NCBI GenBank assembly: GCA_950295325.1
Contig: OX485807.1
Location: 20,493,666 to 20,557,665, forward strand
Source of the DNA: Polytrichum commune
Taxonomy: Eukaryota > Streptophyta > Polytrichopsida > Polytrichales > Polytrichaceae
Length of the DNA: 64,000 bases
Direction of reading: 5' to 3'
Shown: one piece after another, positions 2 to 61,685 of the stretch
Layout: every line of letters starts with the position of its first letter
Position numbering within the stretch: position 1 is the first letter of the stretch
Position numbers and translations under genes: made by a program
The notes under the pieces: model-generated
The model's input: only the letters and a program-made list of their open reading frames with translations
The model's database searches: none
Told to the model about the DNA's origin: nothing

Positions 2-2127
2 CAGCGGAAACCATCACGAAAGGGAGCAGGGAGCACGGGCATGAAGAAACGAGTGGAACTGGACGCACAGGGACAACCTTTTGGCTCAATGAAGGCCGTA
101 CTTGCCAGCGATATCAAGAAGTATGCCAAGGATTTGGATCCCACGACGGGGTGGGAAGGCCAACCACGGCATGAGAGAAAGCGGTTATTCCGCCGCTTGT
201 ACATAGGTAAGCGTAGCACATGATTTATGCCAAAGTACTTGGGCTCATGTCTCTTTAAACATTAACGCTGGTCCTTCAGATCTGTGTCCAGACCGTCATC
301 GCTAGGAACATGTGCAGGGACACGAAGACGTCGCTTGGAACATCCACCGTGATGGCAATGCGTTTGTATTTTAATCCCTCTTTCTGCATGAGCAATCATT
401 GTTTCTAAGAATGAGATGTTGTTGGTATCCTTTGCACACCAGAATGGCAGCTGTGCGGGCATAGCGACAAAGTCTGCGAGAAGTGGATGCGGCCAATCAT
501 CACAAAGGTCCTCATCAACACTCGTTGGAGACTAAATCAGCTTATTGACAACAATGCCGCCAAACCAGCTGACGTGGATGCAGAGCACTGGAAGACACTA
601 GTATCTATGCGCGGTACCGAGGCCGCGCAGGTAAAGTCTGACCACATGCGAACTATCTCAAAAGGGAAAGGGTCGACCACAGCTCAGATGAAAGCAATTG
701 AAAGGGAAGCCGTGTCACGATTGGTAAGTAACCAGCGAGGTTTTGTTGAAGCAGATGTTGGTGTTGACATCAGTTGTGTCCGTATATGTAACCTCATCCA
801 TCAAGAACGACATCATTTTTTATGAGCTGCGTCTGACTCAACGTAGTGTTTGCTTGAAGTGGAAGATGTTCATTTAATTTTTGAATTCATTGGAGCATAC
901 ATTCATGTGAGGCTGGCTTTCTGGTGGCACTTGGTGCGTTCACATGTTCTAGTCAAGCCTTTTTTGTCACGTGTAATCGAAAATAAGGGTTGCGGTTTTT
1001 GCAGACGATGTTGAAAGGCCGGCCACCGTATGATGTTGAGGTCGACGCAGAAGTCGCCAAAGAATACCAACGCCTACAAGAGGAAAAACGCAGGGTGAAA
1101 CCAGATCATGGCCGCGAGATAGATGAGGTGCGCACTCGTGTGTCAGAGCTGGAGGGCAGCATCACACGCCTCGGGGAGAACGTGACGGCGTCCCATAAAC
1201 GCCTGGAGGATATGATGCAGTTGATTCTTCAGAATCAGGGCAAGAAGCACGTGAATGTAGGTGAGGACATTACAGAACCTTCGTCATCTGCGAAGATCCT
1301 GGATACATCTACTCTGACGTCCACCACGGCAGAGCCCACAACGTTGCCACATCATCCCGTCCCCGCCGCACTAGTGACCGCCTTGGCCACTGCGAACACG
1401 CGATTGGCGTCTGAGGTTCATGTTCCCTGTGACGTCGCCGAAGACGCTGCGACCGAGGCTGCCACAAACAACGAAGGAGTCCACAACAGCGCTGACACCG
1501 TTATAGCGTCCATCATTGAGGATATCCTAGACGAAGAGGGTAAAAAATCTATTGATCCACAAGCAACTGAGGACGTAGCAGAGCCCGAATCAGAGGATGT
1601 GCATATGTGTGCCGTGGAGGAGGTCAACGAAGGGCAGCCCGAGGTTGAGGGCATTGCGGATGTGCCCGAAGACATTGCCAACCCGGAGCAGGTAACATCG
1701 ACCAAGACCCTATGCTGAAATTCATACATGGCATTCTGTTAATAACGCTGGGCTAAGTCGTTCTTCATGTTGACATCCTCAATGATGTTCTGCGTGACAT
1801 ACACCTTGTCGGCAGGATATGTCTTTGGACATCTACTTTGACATAAAGACTTCCCACCCTTGCGGTTGCACATGGCAGGAGGATGTACAGGCAACTGAAG
1901 AGTCAGCTGGCAGACCTCGCCGCGTCGGGAGGAGCGCGGCTAAATCAGCAATGGTGAAATTCAATGCTCCAAAAGCGGTTGGTTTGCCTAAACCTCCCCA
2001 AATTCCTCCGAAGGTGAGGGAAACAGTGCATGTATGTCAATTTGGGTCGACTCCCTTTGCTTGTGGGAGCATCGACATGAACAAGTGCACATGCGCACAA
2101 TGTATGTATGGCACGTATATGGAATGA
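2..2127 (+). CDS. CACTA-associated TNPA-like accessory protein gene, 5' partial, four exons seen
   Basis: Four exons join in phase: ?-206 (donor GTAAGC), 443-723 (donor GTAAGT), 1005-1691 (acceptor TTTTTGCAG) and 1816-2127 with a stop at 2127, or a donor AAG/GTGAGG at 2014 leading further. The second exon has a WRLNQLI...HWKTLVSMRGTEAA block that resembles the region next to CACTA transposases in plants (Transposase_24-like), where a WRxxK helix is followed by a 'W..LV..W.S..A' motif. Exon 3 encodes a predicted coiled coil (heptads around DEVRTRVSELEGSITRLGEN) followed by an acidic, Thr/Glu-rich tail. Codon use is more GC-rich than the surroundings. The location next to the CACTA right end supports a role in binding element ends, but that is inferred from family knowledge. 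No transposase catalytic residues are visible here. Confidence 0.5.
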
Positions 2128-2905: not shown

Positions 2906-3066
2906 CCACGTCAGCAATAACGAATGCCACGTCAGAATTTGGCGGTCCACATCATTTCCAAAGGTGGTCCACGTAACACCCCACGTTAGCGATAACGAAA
3001 GCCACGTCAGCAATTTGGCGGTCCACATAATTTCTAAAGGGGGTCCACATGACACCCCACGTCAGC
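2906..3066. repeat. CACTA subterminal direct repeats, 75-76 bp unit, about 2.2 copies
   Basis: Units start at 2906, 2981 and 3057, each with CCACGT(C/T)AGC. Within each unit are a second CCACGTCAG and a GGCGGTCCACAT motif, followed by (A/G)GTGGTCCACGT or a close variant. These repeated motifs near the element end are candidate binding sites for a TNPA-type protein. Confidence 0.8.
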
Positions 3067-3338
3067 AAGGGAACAAATGCAAAACTTGCCGTTGTGGTAG
3101 TGCCCGCTTAAAACTTGCCTGCGTGGAGGCCACATGCCCTCCACGTGCCCCTACGTCGGGAGCATGGAAGATGTCGTTTTATATGACGTCACATAAAAAC
3201 ATGTTGAAATTCGGCATGTTATCTATGTTTATTGGGCGTTTTTGCCATGTCCTTCATAACGGATTTTAGGTGACGTCTCAGAGGAGTACTTCCATGTCAA
3301 AGCGAACGTGATTTGCCATTTTTTTTGACGTCCAAAAA

Positions 3339-44046: not shown

Positions 44047-45394
44047 GAGTGGTTCGGACACTGCCACCTGGCAGCCAGGTAGGGGTCTGCCACAACTAGC
44101 CAATGGGGATCCACTCCACTTTTTTCACTTATTCCTAGGCACGTAAAAAGGTCATCGCCCTATAACAGCAACAACTTCCATGCCATGCCATGCCGGCCGT
44201 TATAGCCCGAGAACATTTAGGCTTTGCCGACGTCGGCTCCCGAGTATTGGAGGGTCGTAAAGGGCCACGAGAGTACGATGTATGTGGATTGGAGGCCCTT
44301 CTTTCCAAACAATTTGATGTCGGAAATAGTTTCCAAGACCCCGAATTAGTCTAGCACGAAGCATTCGGAATGATAGAAACTGAAATTGGGTTTTAAAGTC
44401 CAGAATGATAAAAGGTTTGTTGGACTAGACGTACATCGAGATGGTGGCAAAGAGATCGATTCTCTCGAGGAAAAGATTGGAGTGGTCTCAGTAAGATGTA
44501 GGCTATTATCAACTTGATGGTCCAATTGGAAGAAAGACTTGAGACTACTTAGAGTTGCGTTCTAAAATAGGGAAGGGAACTTGTCTCTAATGGAGTTGTA
44601 GAGGGGACAGCCCAACACAAAGTGTGCCTCATGGATGGATGAATGAGAGGTACGCTCTACAATAATATTCCCCTCTCACCCCTCACGTCGGGTTCTGGGC
44701 AGTTTGTTAACAAGAAAATTACATCTCATGTTTCAAAGGTCCACTTGACCATTGTCCGTGTCAACACATTAGTAAGCAACTACATGATGGTCTCCTTCCA
44801 AAGAAAGAGGCCGCGTTTTAAGTACTCTAAAAAAATATACAATTGTTTGTCGAAAAGCTCATTGTACACATCCTAAGTGCTCCCCAGAAACAGGGATATC
44901 CTAGAATTAAAGATAAATTATGCTCATGTGATATGTGGTCCCACAAAACACAGCCAACGAACTTTGTAATGTTAATTTTTTGCAAAGGTTCAAAAACTAG
45001 TTATTCACTTACCCACCCGTATGTGTGAGAACACAACAATGAGATTGTTGTGGAGACATTTTCGACACATGAACTTCTATGGTATGTATCACAAATTCAC
45101 TTCATTTCAATTTCAATCCTTTGTCCATTGGATGGTTGACATTTTGACGGAGCTATAAATTTGACTCAAATTGTCCAATAGGAACATGTTGACATTACTC
45201 AAGATTGGAGACAACTTGGACATTTCGGTCACTTAATTTGTGCACACATTGGTTTTTTTCAATTTAAAACATGGAGTATCATTTGGGGGAGGATGTAAGT
45301 TTCTCTCACAATTTTTTGCAGGCTTTTAGTATTTTCTCAACAAATGAATTATTGTCTTGCACTTGGAACATAGATGAAATCTTATCCTCTTATA
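44047..45394. other. No gene recognised
   Basis: Contains a single arm of the 39958-type MITE near 44630-44690. Otherwise AT-rich with short ORFs. Confidence 0.4.
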
Positions 45395-45395
45395 T

Positions 45396-46800
45396 ATGGA
45401 AGGGTTTGCACTCTCCATGGTATCATTGGAGAATGGGCAAAGAGTGTTAGATAGCTTGAATGATAGGTTATCAAATGTATGTAGGTATTGTGACATACAT
45501 GAAACACTAACAATCATTAATACGCTATATCCAAACGAACCCGCATACATATTTACCGACAGTCTCAATGTATTATACTTACTTAACACACAAATTAAAC
45601 ACCCCACACTTCACAATAGCCACCCCGACCAAATCACCCTCGTCACCATGGTACAACTACTTCAAAACCGGACACAACCAATCACACTATACAAAGTCAG
45701 AGCACACGTCAACATTTACGGCAACGAACAAGCAGACAAATTGGCAAAAGAAGGGCTAGAACTAGAGCACATAATTGCCATTCACCCACATGAGCATGCC
45801 CATGCTACCCCATACTACTACCAAAAGGACGTCTGGGCCTCAATGGAGGACGTCCCTAACAAAGGCCCCGTTAGATTCTTAGAAAAGCAAATAATAAAAT
45901 ATGATAGAGAAAATAACTTGGAAAACATGGCCACACAAACTCCTAACATGTACAAATGGACAGGGAACGCAGAAATAGACAAAGAATTATCTAATGAATT
46001 TTGGGAAAACCCAGAAATCTCAGATAAACAAAAATCATGCCTCATCAAATTCCGAACCGGAACTTATATGGGAAATGCTCGAAAACAACTGTTCTTCGGT
46101 AGACAAACATATCCATCTATCACATGCCCCATCTGCAATTCATACGAGCCGGATACATGGTTACATGTACTACTTACGTGTAAACAACAACATATACATT
46201 CACTCCACGTCAACAGACACAACAAAGCAGTATGGGAAATTAGGAAACTACTAATCTCATCCGAAAAATCCCGATGTTATATTCTCATGAATGCTGGCAC
46301 CTTCAATAACACACCCCAAGAAAACACTGTTCCCAATTGGCTACTCCCTTGCACATGCGGTACTCAAAGATGCCATTGTAACTCCAGATTTAGACCTGAC
46401 ATCCTTTGTGTTAGAGGATTACCATACCAAAACGACCCCCCCACAGACATAGACCCCAACCTCACCATACAATTCATCGAATTCACATATTGTAATGATA
46501 GATTCTCACCAGAAACACTCGAAGCAAAAAAATAACAAATATAGACCATTAATCGATAGTATCACTGCTAGAGGATGGAAAACCGACCCCCTTATTATAA
46601 TCACTGCAGGCGCCAGAGCCACTACCCACATTCCATCAATGAAGTCACTCGAAAATAAATTTAAAATACCTATGCCTACCATTAAAAATACCTTCAAAAA
46701 CATCAATACTATCGCTATAAAATATGCCATGTCTATCCTCCTCCACAAAAGAAGAATAGAAAACCACCAACCGCTACCCCAAACACTAGACCCCCCATAG
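45396..46800 (+). pseudogene. Non-LTR retrotransposon 3' coding region: RNase H, CCHC knuckle, PD-(D/E)XK-like endonuclease; frameshifted
   Basis: The first frame (45396-46535, 379 codons) has an RNase H core with D55 in FTDSLN and H104/D114 in AHVNIYGNEQAD. A knuckle C244-x2-C247-x9-H257-x4-C262 follows, then a Cys cluster (319, 321, 326, 328), then RPD (333-335) and E362 in FIEFTY and K378. The rest of the nuclease motif, NKYRPLI, is in another frame from about 46530 to 46800. The frames would meet if an A7 run at about 46523-46529 were one base shorter. The CCHC-RPD-E-K-KY order matches the restriction-like endonuclease of R2/NeSL/Dualen-type elements. Reverse transcriptase is missing, and similarity seems to begin only near 45495, so the copy is 5' truncated, which is common for non-LTR elements. 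A strong A/C bias on the plus strand marks the element from about 45500 to 46815. Confidence 0.7.
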
Positions 46801-47720
46801 ATAAAACCATTAAAACCAACCATTATGGTCCTTGTTACTGGTGACTAGTGACTATAGTGTCTACTCTCGAAAGGGAGGAGTAGATCTGTACTTCCATACC
46901 TTTGTCCTGAGGGCATCGGATTGGGGGTGGATCGAACAGACACTTAATTCACGTCGGTCTCCTCCGGAGACCGAAGTTTTTCTTCTTCTTCTTCTTCTTA
47001 GGTATTGTGAAGATGTTTATTCGAGCAACATTGCAACTAAGCAATGGTTAGACGAGCTTCTTCTTAAGTTTGTTGGTAAACACTTTGTTGGTTGATCCCT
47101 TTCACGTTCAATATTGGGGGCCAACATATGAGAGACTATATTTTTTTTGCTATCAAATATGCAAATTGGAATGTCGTTGTCATTTTATTTATCCCTTCTT
47201 TTTTTATGTTGCATGAGTGGATTTGTCACGGGTAGATCACTTAGTGCATTTTAAAAACGACGTGCGGCATAATATAGAGAGGATTAAAATCATTTGAAAT
47301 AAAAATTATAAAGGAATTCCAAATAAGGAAGGGGCCATTAAATGTAGACAATCCCATTATAAGTAAGTTAGATGAACATAAAACGTGGGCCATTATTTTT
47401 TTTTGTAAAATTAATATAGGGGCTGAAGATAAGGATCCTAGAAGGTATGTTTAGTATGATCTGTAAATGGGTTTAGGACTCACGGGGATGGACGACAATT
47501 GGGATTTCCGTCTGTCCAAAAATGGATGAAAAGGGAACGCGCCGTCGTTGGGGTCATCTTCCCCACGCCCGTTTGCAGATGGCTAGGGTTTCAATTTGCT
47601 TCGCGTTTTCGTCCATTGTGTTTTGGAGGTGCGTTTTCAGAGCTGGGTTTGGGTTTAGGTGCGTGCACACCTTGTTTGGTGTATTGATCTGCATCTACTG
47701 GGGCGGTTTACATTCGAATT
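46801..47720. other. No gene; possible retroelement 3' end and (TTC)n tract
   Basis: The A/C-rich composition fades by about 46820, so the retroelement 3' UTR is short. A (TTC)n tract lies at about 46978-46999. No clear target duplication was identified. Confidence 0.4.
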
Positions 47721-60300: not shown

Positions 60301-61685
60301 GCCAAGATCTTATCAATATAAATCCTTCAACAAACTTGACCAAAATATAAGCCCTAGAAGTGGAATTCCTTGTGCATTACAGAAGTTCTCAGAAGAGAAC
60401 TCACAACCTCCACCAACATAACAAACAGAAGTTAGATCTCACACCATCATCCTTCACTAAACTGCTCCGTGGAGAATCACGTGAAAACCCTAAGCCCGAC
60501 AAAACCCCAGAAAACAGCCACCTTTGGCCAGAATTCTTTTCTATGGAATCAGCTCCATTGTCCACACAAAAAGTTGCACAAGTTATGTGCCTTTCGAAAC
60601 CCATCCTTAACGTCTAAACTTCAGATGCCTGCGGTAGGCCTATGATGCATTTTGTTGCGCAGAATGCATTTCAAGAATTGTAACCCTCCTTCCAAACTTT
60701 TGCAATCAGCTAGTATCTATCTATGTTAAACATTTGCACAGAGTTAACACCTTCGAAATCCATCCTCAACATTTCAAATTTCAGATGCCTGTGAATTTGT
60801 TGCAATGGATGCATTTCGAGGAGTGCAAGTCAAACCCTCCTTCCAGAGTTTTGCAATCAGCTAGAATCTATCTATGTTAAACAATTGCATAGTGTCACAC
60901 CTTTCGAAATCTCATCCTTAACATTTCAAAATTCAGATGCCTGTGATAGGCCTGTGATTTTGTTGCGGTGGATGCATTTCAAAAAGCGCAAGTCAACCCT
61001 CCTCCCAAATTTTTGCAATCAGCAAGAATCTATGTTGAATTTAGAGTACGAGCAAGGGGGTTCAAGTATAGAGTTCATCATCATCATACTTGCGAAGGAT
61101 GGCAACAAGGTCACCAGCAGGTCCTACAAGAGCAACAGAGGTAGCCCCAGACAACTGCTCCTTCTTCTCATCATCGATAGCCAACACAATGGGGATGGAC
61201 ATGTTGACAAGGCTGCCGTCCGGCATACGCAGGCAGTTGAAATGCAGTGCTTGCAGATACTCTTGCTGGCGCATGAATCCCTTGAGAGGAGATGCCCAGC
61301 CCTCTGCCACCACATGCACCCACTCCAAGTCCACCTTAGACAGAAGAATCTGGGGCAATGCCTCAGCCTCCGACCGCTTCGCATCCCTCTCCTGCTCCGA
61401 CACATGAAGGTCCACCAACACACCCCCATCAGGCGCTATGAGGCCCTTGCGTGTTGTTGCTGCTTCCATGGCTGTCGTCGTTGTAGCACATGCACAGATC
61501 GAAGTAGCTCTTCGTCTGCAGCTCGAAGGACCGCCGTCGGTAGCAGAGGTTGTCATCGTCGCCAACCGAAGTCCAAGGGGTCCGGTGAGCACGGCAGGAG
61601 TAGAACCGAGACGCTTGCTGGAGCCTGCAATGTTTCGCGTGGCTATGGAGGCCACGCTGGGAACCCTTGCCAACACTGCCTCCAT
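57375..61685 (-). CDS. APS: ATP sulfurylase (sulfate adenylyltransferase), plastid type, six exons
   Basis: Catalyses ATP + sulfate to APS + pyrophosphate, the first step of sulfate assimilation. Exons: 61685-61090, 60287-60071, 59584-59396, 58445-58185, 57724-57638, 57503-57375. They join in phase to 1479 nt (492 aa). The conserved core is complete: [13 protein letters not shown]-binding QLRNP (279-283) and HNGH (285-288), GRDPAG (381-386) and the C-terminal FMCPGGW. The first 85 or so residues are Ser/Thr/Ala/Arg-rich with few acids, as in a plastid transit peptide. There is no C-terminal APS kinase-like domain, as in plants. Four introns are GT-AG; the intron after residue 334 has the donor AAG/GCAAGT and an AG acceptor. 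Intron 1 (802 bp) and intron 3 (950 bp) carry tandem repeats. No frame damage was seen, so the gene looks functional. The start was chosen as the ATG giving the transit peptide. Confidence 0.96.
58480..59045 (+). repeat. Tandem repeat in ATP sulfurylase intron 3, about 212-bp period, three copies
   Basis: Copies start at about 58480, 58693 and 58910. Shared text: GATGGTCACATGTACA(A/G)A or a close variant, ACACAACAGCAAACAGACAT and GACTTGTCGAC(T/C)TGCTCTAC. Divergence increases toward the third copy. Confidence 0.85.
60590..61046 (+). repeat. Tandem repeat in ATP sulfurylase intron 1, 150-160 bp period, three copies
   Basis: Copies start at about 60592, 60751 and 60901. Each has TTCGAAA, TTCAGATGCCTG, TTTTGCAATCAGC and AGAATCTATC-like text. 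The array almost fills intron 1 and stops about 45 bp from the exon 1 donor. Confidence 0.9.

Follow-up and report, generated by a model that had tools for sequence, protein, structure and literature searches.

The stretch of DNA analysed here (the window: 64 000 nucleotides, G000:C5:20493666-20557665, part of a genome of 408 Mb in 64 contigs that was searched throughout) contains a short coding region in which an RNase H is followed by motifs otherwise familiar from the C-termini of R2-like retrotransposons, and the question that it raises is what kind of element could have left such a combination behind. The original prediction was of a retrotransposon tail joining RNase H to an R2-like restriction-like endonuclease (RLE), with the Dualen-like elements of green algae as a comparison and a new streptophyte clade as the other possibility. 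We consider it probable that a dual-endonuclease non-LTR retrotransposon of the Dualen/RandI kind, residing in a land-plant-like genome, left this tail behind, and the argument for this reading comes mostly from relatives of the window copy elsewhere in the same genome. The host is called land-plant-like on account of LEAFY-type matches at four places, at two of which the DNA-binding domain begins as in land plants; these mark a streptophyte genome, in all likelihood that of a land plant.

Table 1. Features of the window copy (window coordinates) and of ORF2 in an intact relative (residues in L009 numbering).
Feature	Position	Strand	Evidence or remark
5′ TSD copy TAGGTATTGTGA	45482..45493	+	target-site duplication (TSD)
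5′-truncated insertion, body plus tail	45494..46998	+	between the two TSD copies; blastn/tblastn homology from 45495
RNase H, C-terminal half	45495..45760	+	Pfam PF00075, E 4.8e-07, profile 59-140 of 141; L009 residue 2192 onward
CCHC motif CPIC...H....C	46125..46181	+	RHNK downstream, as in R2 tails
CxC...CHC cluster	46350..46379	+	four Cys invariant, 9/9 rows
Putative restriction-like endonuclease, first half	46392..46481	+	RPD 46392-46400, E 46479-46481; PD and E invariant, 9/9 rows; collinear with R2
Frame-breaking A-run	46526..46532	+	length compared with intact relatives
Putative restriction-like endonuclease, second half, shifted frame	46528..46797	+	K 46528-46530, ..KY to 46542, then C-terminus
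Structured 3′ UTR (predicted), covarying pairs, terminal hairpin at end	46856..46978	+	L001 positions 2979-3101
(TTC)n 3′ tail	46979..46998	+	
3′ TSD copy TAGGTATTGTGA	46999..47010	+	12 bp
ORF2: 2A-like motif GDIEPNPGP	L009 277-285		
ORF2: APE	L009 about 500-770		absent from whole-protein Pfam scan; matched when region scanned alone
ORF2: RT	L009 1121-1387		Pfam RVT_1, E 1.1e-29
ORF2: PCIF1_WW	L009 1871-1966		E 3.6e-10, 40.2 bits, cut-off 31.1
ORF2: RNase H	L009 2139-2279		Pfam RNase_H, E 7.3e-13

Judged from its sequence, the window copy (Table 1) is a fairly young, dead, 5′-truncated insertion. Over 1491 bases it is 98.5–98.7% identical to four (L002–L005) of the seven loci with which it was compared, the remaining ones being 92–93% (L006 and L008) and 81% (L010) identical. 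The claim that a single reading frame runs through all of its motifs held in part: the frame at 45378–46535 (+) carries the RNase H, of which only the C-terminal half is present, together with the CCHC motif, the CxC...CHC cluster, RPD and E, but K..KY sits in a second frame (46453–46800), the first one stopping at 46535. K..KY is out of frame because the A-run differs by one base in length from that of intact relatives. In tblastn, the two sides of this break align to the intact ORF2 of L009 over 345 residues at 85.5% identity (45495–46529) and 90 residues at 82.2% (46528–46797), which speaks against a chance resemblance.

Full-length relatives, which a translated search of the genome had been expected to bring up, were recovered: 107 places, the window included, were scored of 5089 first-look candidates, all 107 matched, and three (L009, L010 and L011) retain an intact, open ORF2 of 2625 aa. 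These three are pairwise 99.0–99.5% identical over about 9.3 kb. L010 is complete, with a length of about 11.96 kb and flanking 12-bp duplications (TCCATTCTTAAC), and L009 and L011 align to it over 12.0 and 10.7 kb, respectively; its ORF1 frame (747 aa), for which a Pfam scan gave no match, overlaps ORF2. Long open frames of 2663, 2919 and 2924 aa occur in other families, and the change of frame from ORF1 to ORF2 takes opposite signs in different families. A consistent −1 frameshift from ORF1 into ORF2 was dropped as a candidate for this reason. Close to the 5′ end of L009 and L010 (seen in L012 and L013) lie tandem repeats of 18/54 and about 48–56 bases, presumably recalling the promoter monomers of some LINEs. 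Upstream of L010, a related family has left a fragment in inverted orientation (L013, 4409–4530 and beyond; 607 bases, 78% identical), accompanied by a piece of 3′ UTR. Elsewhere, two loci 84 kb apart (L006 and L007; G000:C3:10658328 and C3:10742161) agree in score, in open frames and in the 3′ flank as printed, and for these reasons are likely a segmental duplication rather than two insertions.

Closer to the window copy, L002 is one of its two nearest loci (98.7% identical), and L065 extends it upstream on the same strand and at the expected distance, so the two are taken here as one insertion. L065 contributes a canonical 2A motif and an APE, with one stop, and a match to the PCIF1-like domain described below falls between the two parts (C3:15082766–15083029). 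Since this sibling carries an APE, the window's own subfamily presumably once had both nucleases. The element as a whole may also have been mobile until lately: 15 of 40 scored matches in a 3′ UTR search (1666 candidates) attain the highest score along all 231 bases, which together with the three open ORF2s suggests activity in the recent past.

The ORF2 of these copies is ordered as 2A-like motif, APE, RT, PCIF1-like domain, RNase H, CCHC motif and R2-type tail. The original prediction had singled out an N-terminal APE as the domain to look for in full-length relatives, and it is there: scanned alone, three of three APE regions hit both PF14529, with a best E of 6.1e-08, and PF03372, with a best E of 3.8e-07, the hits of L009 itself (1.9e-4 and 0.0034, respectively) being below the curated cut-offs, and an APE is likewise found in L002/L065. 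A profile of the three rows searched against the PDB gave a weak match to exonuclease III (E 0.006). Eight residues (A2 numbering: N13, E42, D169, N171, D228, S252, D253, H254), which we take to be the APE active site, are invariant in all three rows. At the other end of the protein, RNase H and the RPD/E/K tail do belong together, as had been proposed, occupying one 2625-aa frame in L009 and frames of the same length in L010 and L011. The RNase H itself has an invariant H (H2262) in the D-E-D-H-D set across the six rows of alignment A1.

Odon and colleagues are said to have described 2A sequences in APE-type non-LTR elements in 2013; the element studied here resembles these in having a 2A-like motif plus an APE and differs from them in its restriction-like tail. 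The 2A/StopGo core, given as (D/G/C/N)(V/I)ExNPGP in the excerpted text of PMC12846837, occurs in three of five copies (L009, L018 and L065), while L019 and L020, a near-identical pair from a family with a long open frame, read DIKPNPGP at this place, the E having changed to K.

The PCIF1-like domain and the 2A motif are additions that go beyond the reading of a Dualen-like tail. Searching the genome with PF12237 gave 697 candidates, from which 150 places were scored, all of these past the cut-off and the best at 55.6 bits. Twelve of these loci were examined, nine picked from the list plus the three best (L016 being the place of L018), and in all twelve, 11 of which are new places, RNase H and RLE follow the PCIF1-like domain, as seen in L015–L017 only for the part inside the locus. 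Solved PCIF1 (PDB 6irx) is a weak sequence match (E 0.02). The domain is like the PCIF1/CAPAM cap-adenosine methyltransferase in that it passes the PF12237 cut-off, but differs in its fusion into a retrotransposon protein and in lacking NPPF, which is absent from all eight aligned rows (seven distinct copies) and replaced by HPHN, HPPN or HPHT. Because disruption of NPPF lowers PCIF1 activity, according to the excerpted part of PMC6318281, cap methylation is unlikely; the domain probably does not methylate the cap, and may bind cap or RNA.

The C-terminal tail has the motif order CCHC, RHNK, CxC...CHC, (R/K)PD, E and K..KY. We aligned the nine copies with an open RLE frame (A6), leaving out L034, L036, L038 and L042 with their split RLE matches and L015–L017, which are cut by the locus end. 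P193, D194, E221, K237, K240, Y241 and the four cysteines of the cluster are invariant in nine of nine rows, which amounts to fewer than nine independent tests since some rows are close relatives. The cysteine cluster, which had been put forward as a lineage signature, can hence be called one within this genome. Neither a Pfam match nor a PDB sequence match was obtained for the RLE region. Compared by hhalign with three R2 tails, the profile is collinear over 137 columns with a score of 25.7 and an E of 0.0053 (for one comparison) at a probability of only 7%; one of 100 column shuffles exceeded this with 27.5 over 32 columns, and reversing the profile gave 15.2. An earlier run with five rows had given 23.3, with none of 30 shuffles higher (best 21.2). 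The second acidic residue lies outside the hhalign alignment and was matched to R2 by eye, and a single-sequence model of the window RLE, with the frame break bridged, has a pLDDT of 35 and was set aside. On the motif order and the weak-to-moderate profile match, the tail appears to be an R2-type restriction-like nuclease.

Five enzyme-like domains of ORF2 are under purifying selection. Between L009 and L019, dN/dS is 0.066 for the APE, 0.066 for the RT, 0.134 for the PCIF1-like domain, 0.050 for RNase H and 0.093 for the CCHC plus RLE region, low values from which we conclude that selection has maintained the PCIF1-like domain as well as both nuclease domains (dS against L018 and L022 is near or beyond saturation, and the corresponding ratios are approximate or absent). 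The N-terminal extension is under far weaker constraint than these domains, with a dN/dS of 0.511 for the stretch before the 2A motif.

The 3′ ends of the element are informative as well. In an alignment of 15 3′ UTRs from different copies and families, near-duplicates left out (A7), the common fold has 30 pairs, in 13 of which both partners change (a count reached by 2 of 500 shuffles), and its covariation score is 0.296 vs. 0.164 in shuffles (0 of 500 as high). Sliding the partners by 1–3 columns lowers the share of paired cells from 94% to at most 51%, a comparison biased towards the fold by the derivation of the structure from this very alignment; further pair types in the 3′ UTR were not above shuffles (164 of 500). 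The 3′ UTR is thus, by prediction from comparative folding, a covarying RNA structure. Behind it stand tails of (CTAT)n, (TTC)n and similar repeats. Insertion is dispersed: among 14 copies with top-scoring 3′ UTRs (two of which are L010 and L011), all 14 flanks differ. TSDs were sought at the seven copies with a 5′ end in hand or thought to be so, and five copies, a small sample, have them at 11–12 bp: TCCATTCTTAAC, TAGGTATTGTGA, TACTTGGTGTTA, TGATTAGTGCAT (plus an ambiguous GAT) and TGTCACCCACC, whose first T is possibly part of the tail. No TSD was found at L009 and L011 among these seven, and at six further loci, as at 13 of the 14 loci compared for their flanks, the 5′ side runs into the element. 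By eye, the base after the tail in the 3′ flanks (L043–L064) is often a G following T, possibly a weak nick preference.

Dispersed insertion bears on the strongest alternative, namely that the RLE has lost its cutting activity and now serves just to bind DNA or RNA, the APE making all of the cuts. Most RLE elements are target-specific, as stated in the excerpted text of PMC4640811, and the PD-(D/E)XK fold is only putative (probability 7%, pLDDT 35), so that this alternative has something to recommend it. Nonetheless, the putative catalytic residues are invariant in nine of nine rows and dN/dS over the region is 0.09, and we regard a tail that has ceased to cut as unlikely.

A second alternative takes the element for an ordinary RNase H-bearing plant L1 whose RPD/E/K residues form a chance pattern, as its APE domain and its land-plant-like genome might lead one to suppose. 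The RT phylogeny contradicts this. The tree has 11 rows (five from the element, two host L1s, PDB 8c8j, which we take to be human L1, and three R2s), with 8c8j and 8gh6 as long branches; the element forms its own branch (100/100) apart from both host L1s and 8c8j, the L1 rows stand together (99/97), and so do the R2 rows (94/93). Being unrooted and without Dualen rows, the tree speaks against L1 and says little more. In blastp the L009 RT has higher scores with the three R2s (125, 123 and 100 bits) than with L1 (86 bits to each host L1, 82 to 8c8j), and the nearest RT in the PDB is 9nl2 of the R2 group (E 3.6e-32); no relative turned up in two scans of viral_contigs and one of genome_contigs. 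Moreover, the PD/E/K/KY residues of the tail are invariant in nine of nine rows and under selection, and the RNase H has H in the D-E-D-H-D set, in six rows, rather than the R reported for the archaeal-type RNase H of plant L1 (PMC4640811, excerpt). Taken together, these observations make an ordinary plant L1 very improbable.

Plant-type L1 elements with long open frames are themselves present in this genome (L028, L029 and L030), and L028 has APE, RT and zf-RVT. The element shares with them the APE (L028) and the arrangement of two overlapping frames (L029), but its RT is on another branch and L028 has no RNase H match. With the R2 group (PDB 8gh6, 9nl2, 9nl3) it shares the C-terminal CCHC, RHNK, (R/K)PD and K..KY in the same order; it differs in having an APE, RNase H, ORF1 and the PCIF1-like domain, and in its dispersed insertion with 11–12 bp TSDs. 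Membership of R2 was rejected on the presence of the APE, the 14 of 14 differing 3′ flanks and the position of the RT outside the R2 branch. That fragments of two elements were joined here at random, as the two frames of the window copy might hint, is refuted by the intact copies, with both parts in one frame in L009, and by the one TSD pair in the window, and is given practically no weight.

The comparison that remains is with Dualen/RandI, the original description of which is reportedly that of Kojima and Fujiwara in 2005. In the excerpted literature, these elements combine an APE and a restriction-like endonuclease in one element (PMC3636483, PMC4640811), carry RNase H (PMC4640811) and occur in Chlamydomonas relatives (PMC8226300), and SINEs that share RandI tails carry (ATT)n and (CTTT)n as short 3′ repeats (PMC3747384). 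The element described here likewise has an APE and RLE motifs (the fold being putative), RNase H and a short-repeat tail, and the finding of the APE in three of three regions, of RNase H and of the RLE motif set in one ORF2 supports the Dualen-like reading with which the study began. It differs in that its host is land-plant-like, and in its PCIF1-like domain and 2A motif, which the excerpts of PMC3636483 and PMC4640811 do not mention for Dualen. Among the literature matches listed, we found neither a Dualen element reported from a land plant nor a retrotransposon reported to carry a PCIF1-like domain, which does not establish absence in print. Only part of the domain combination has been reported so far among these matches, in green algae.

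For a dual-endonuclease element of this kind, we propose the following course of events. ORF2 would be translated downstream of the overlapping ORF1, and the 2A motif would free the enzyme from the N-terminal stretch by skipping, as predicted from the motif. This route is less certain given the weak constraint before the 2A, the change of E to K in two of five copies and the varying sign of the frame change. The RT would then recognize the 3′ RNA structure and begin target-primed reverse transcription at a nick, slipping within the repeat tail, and RNase H would remove the RNA. The two nucleases may divide the two strand cuts between them, and the regular 11–12 bp stagger fits a fixed second cut. 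The PCIF1-like domain may hold the capped 5′ end of the RNA, and the window copy would be a dead, 5′-truncated product of such a target-primed insertion. Against this explanation we count the hhalign probability, the one shuffle in 100 that scored higher, the pLDDT of 35, the lack of Pfam and PDB matches to the RLE and the lack of TSDs at L009 and L011. A more speculative extension, which we advance tentatively and think rather doubtful, is that the captured PCIF1-like module is a non-catalytic reader of the element's own capped 5′ end, such that the 2A-released enzyme checks both ends of its RNA and cuts both strands with its two nucleases, the 11–12 bp TSDs being the mark of it.

From the position of Dualen it has been argued that APE elements originated when the restriction-like endonuclease was replaced (PMC4640811). 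A many-copy land-plant element that appears recently active, with open ORF2s and both nucleases under selection, would make it testable which nuclease cuts which strand. A cap-related module such as the PCIF1-like domain would come as a surprise in a retrotransposon. The 2A motif would be a naturally occurring example from a plant; among plant viruses, one survey reports no natural use of 2A (PMC12846837). Elsewhere in the window, a minus-strand frame at 61062–61718 matches PUA_2 (E 1e-31). By eye, this frame resembles an ATP sulfurylase.
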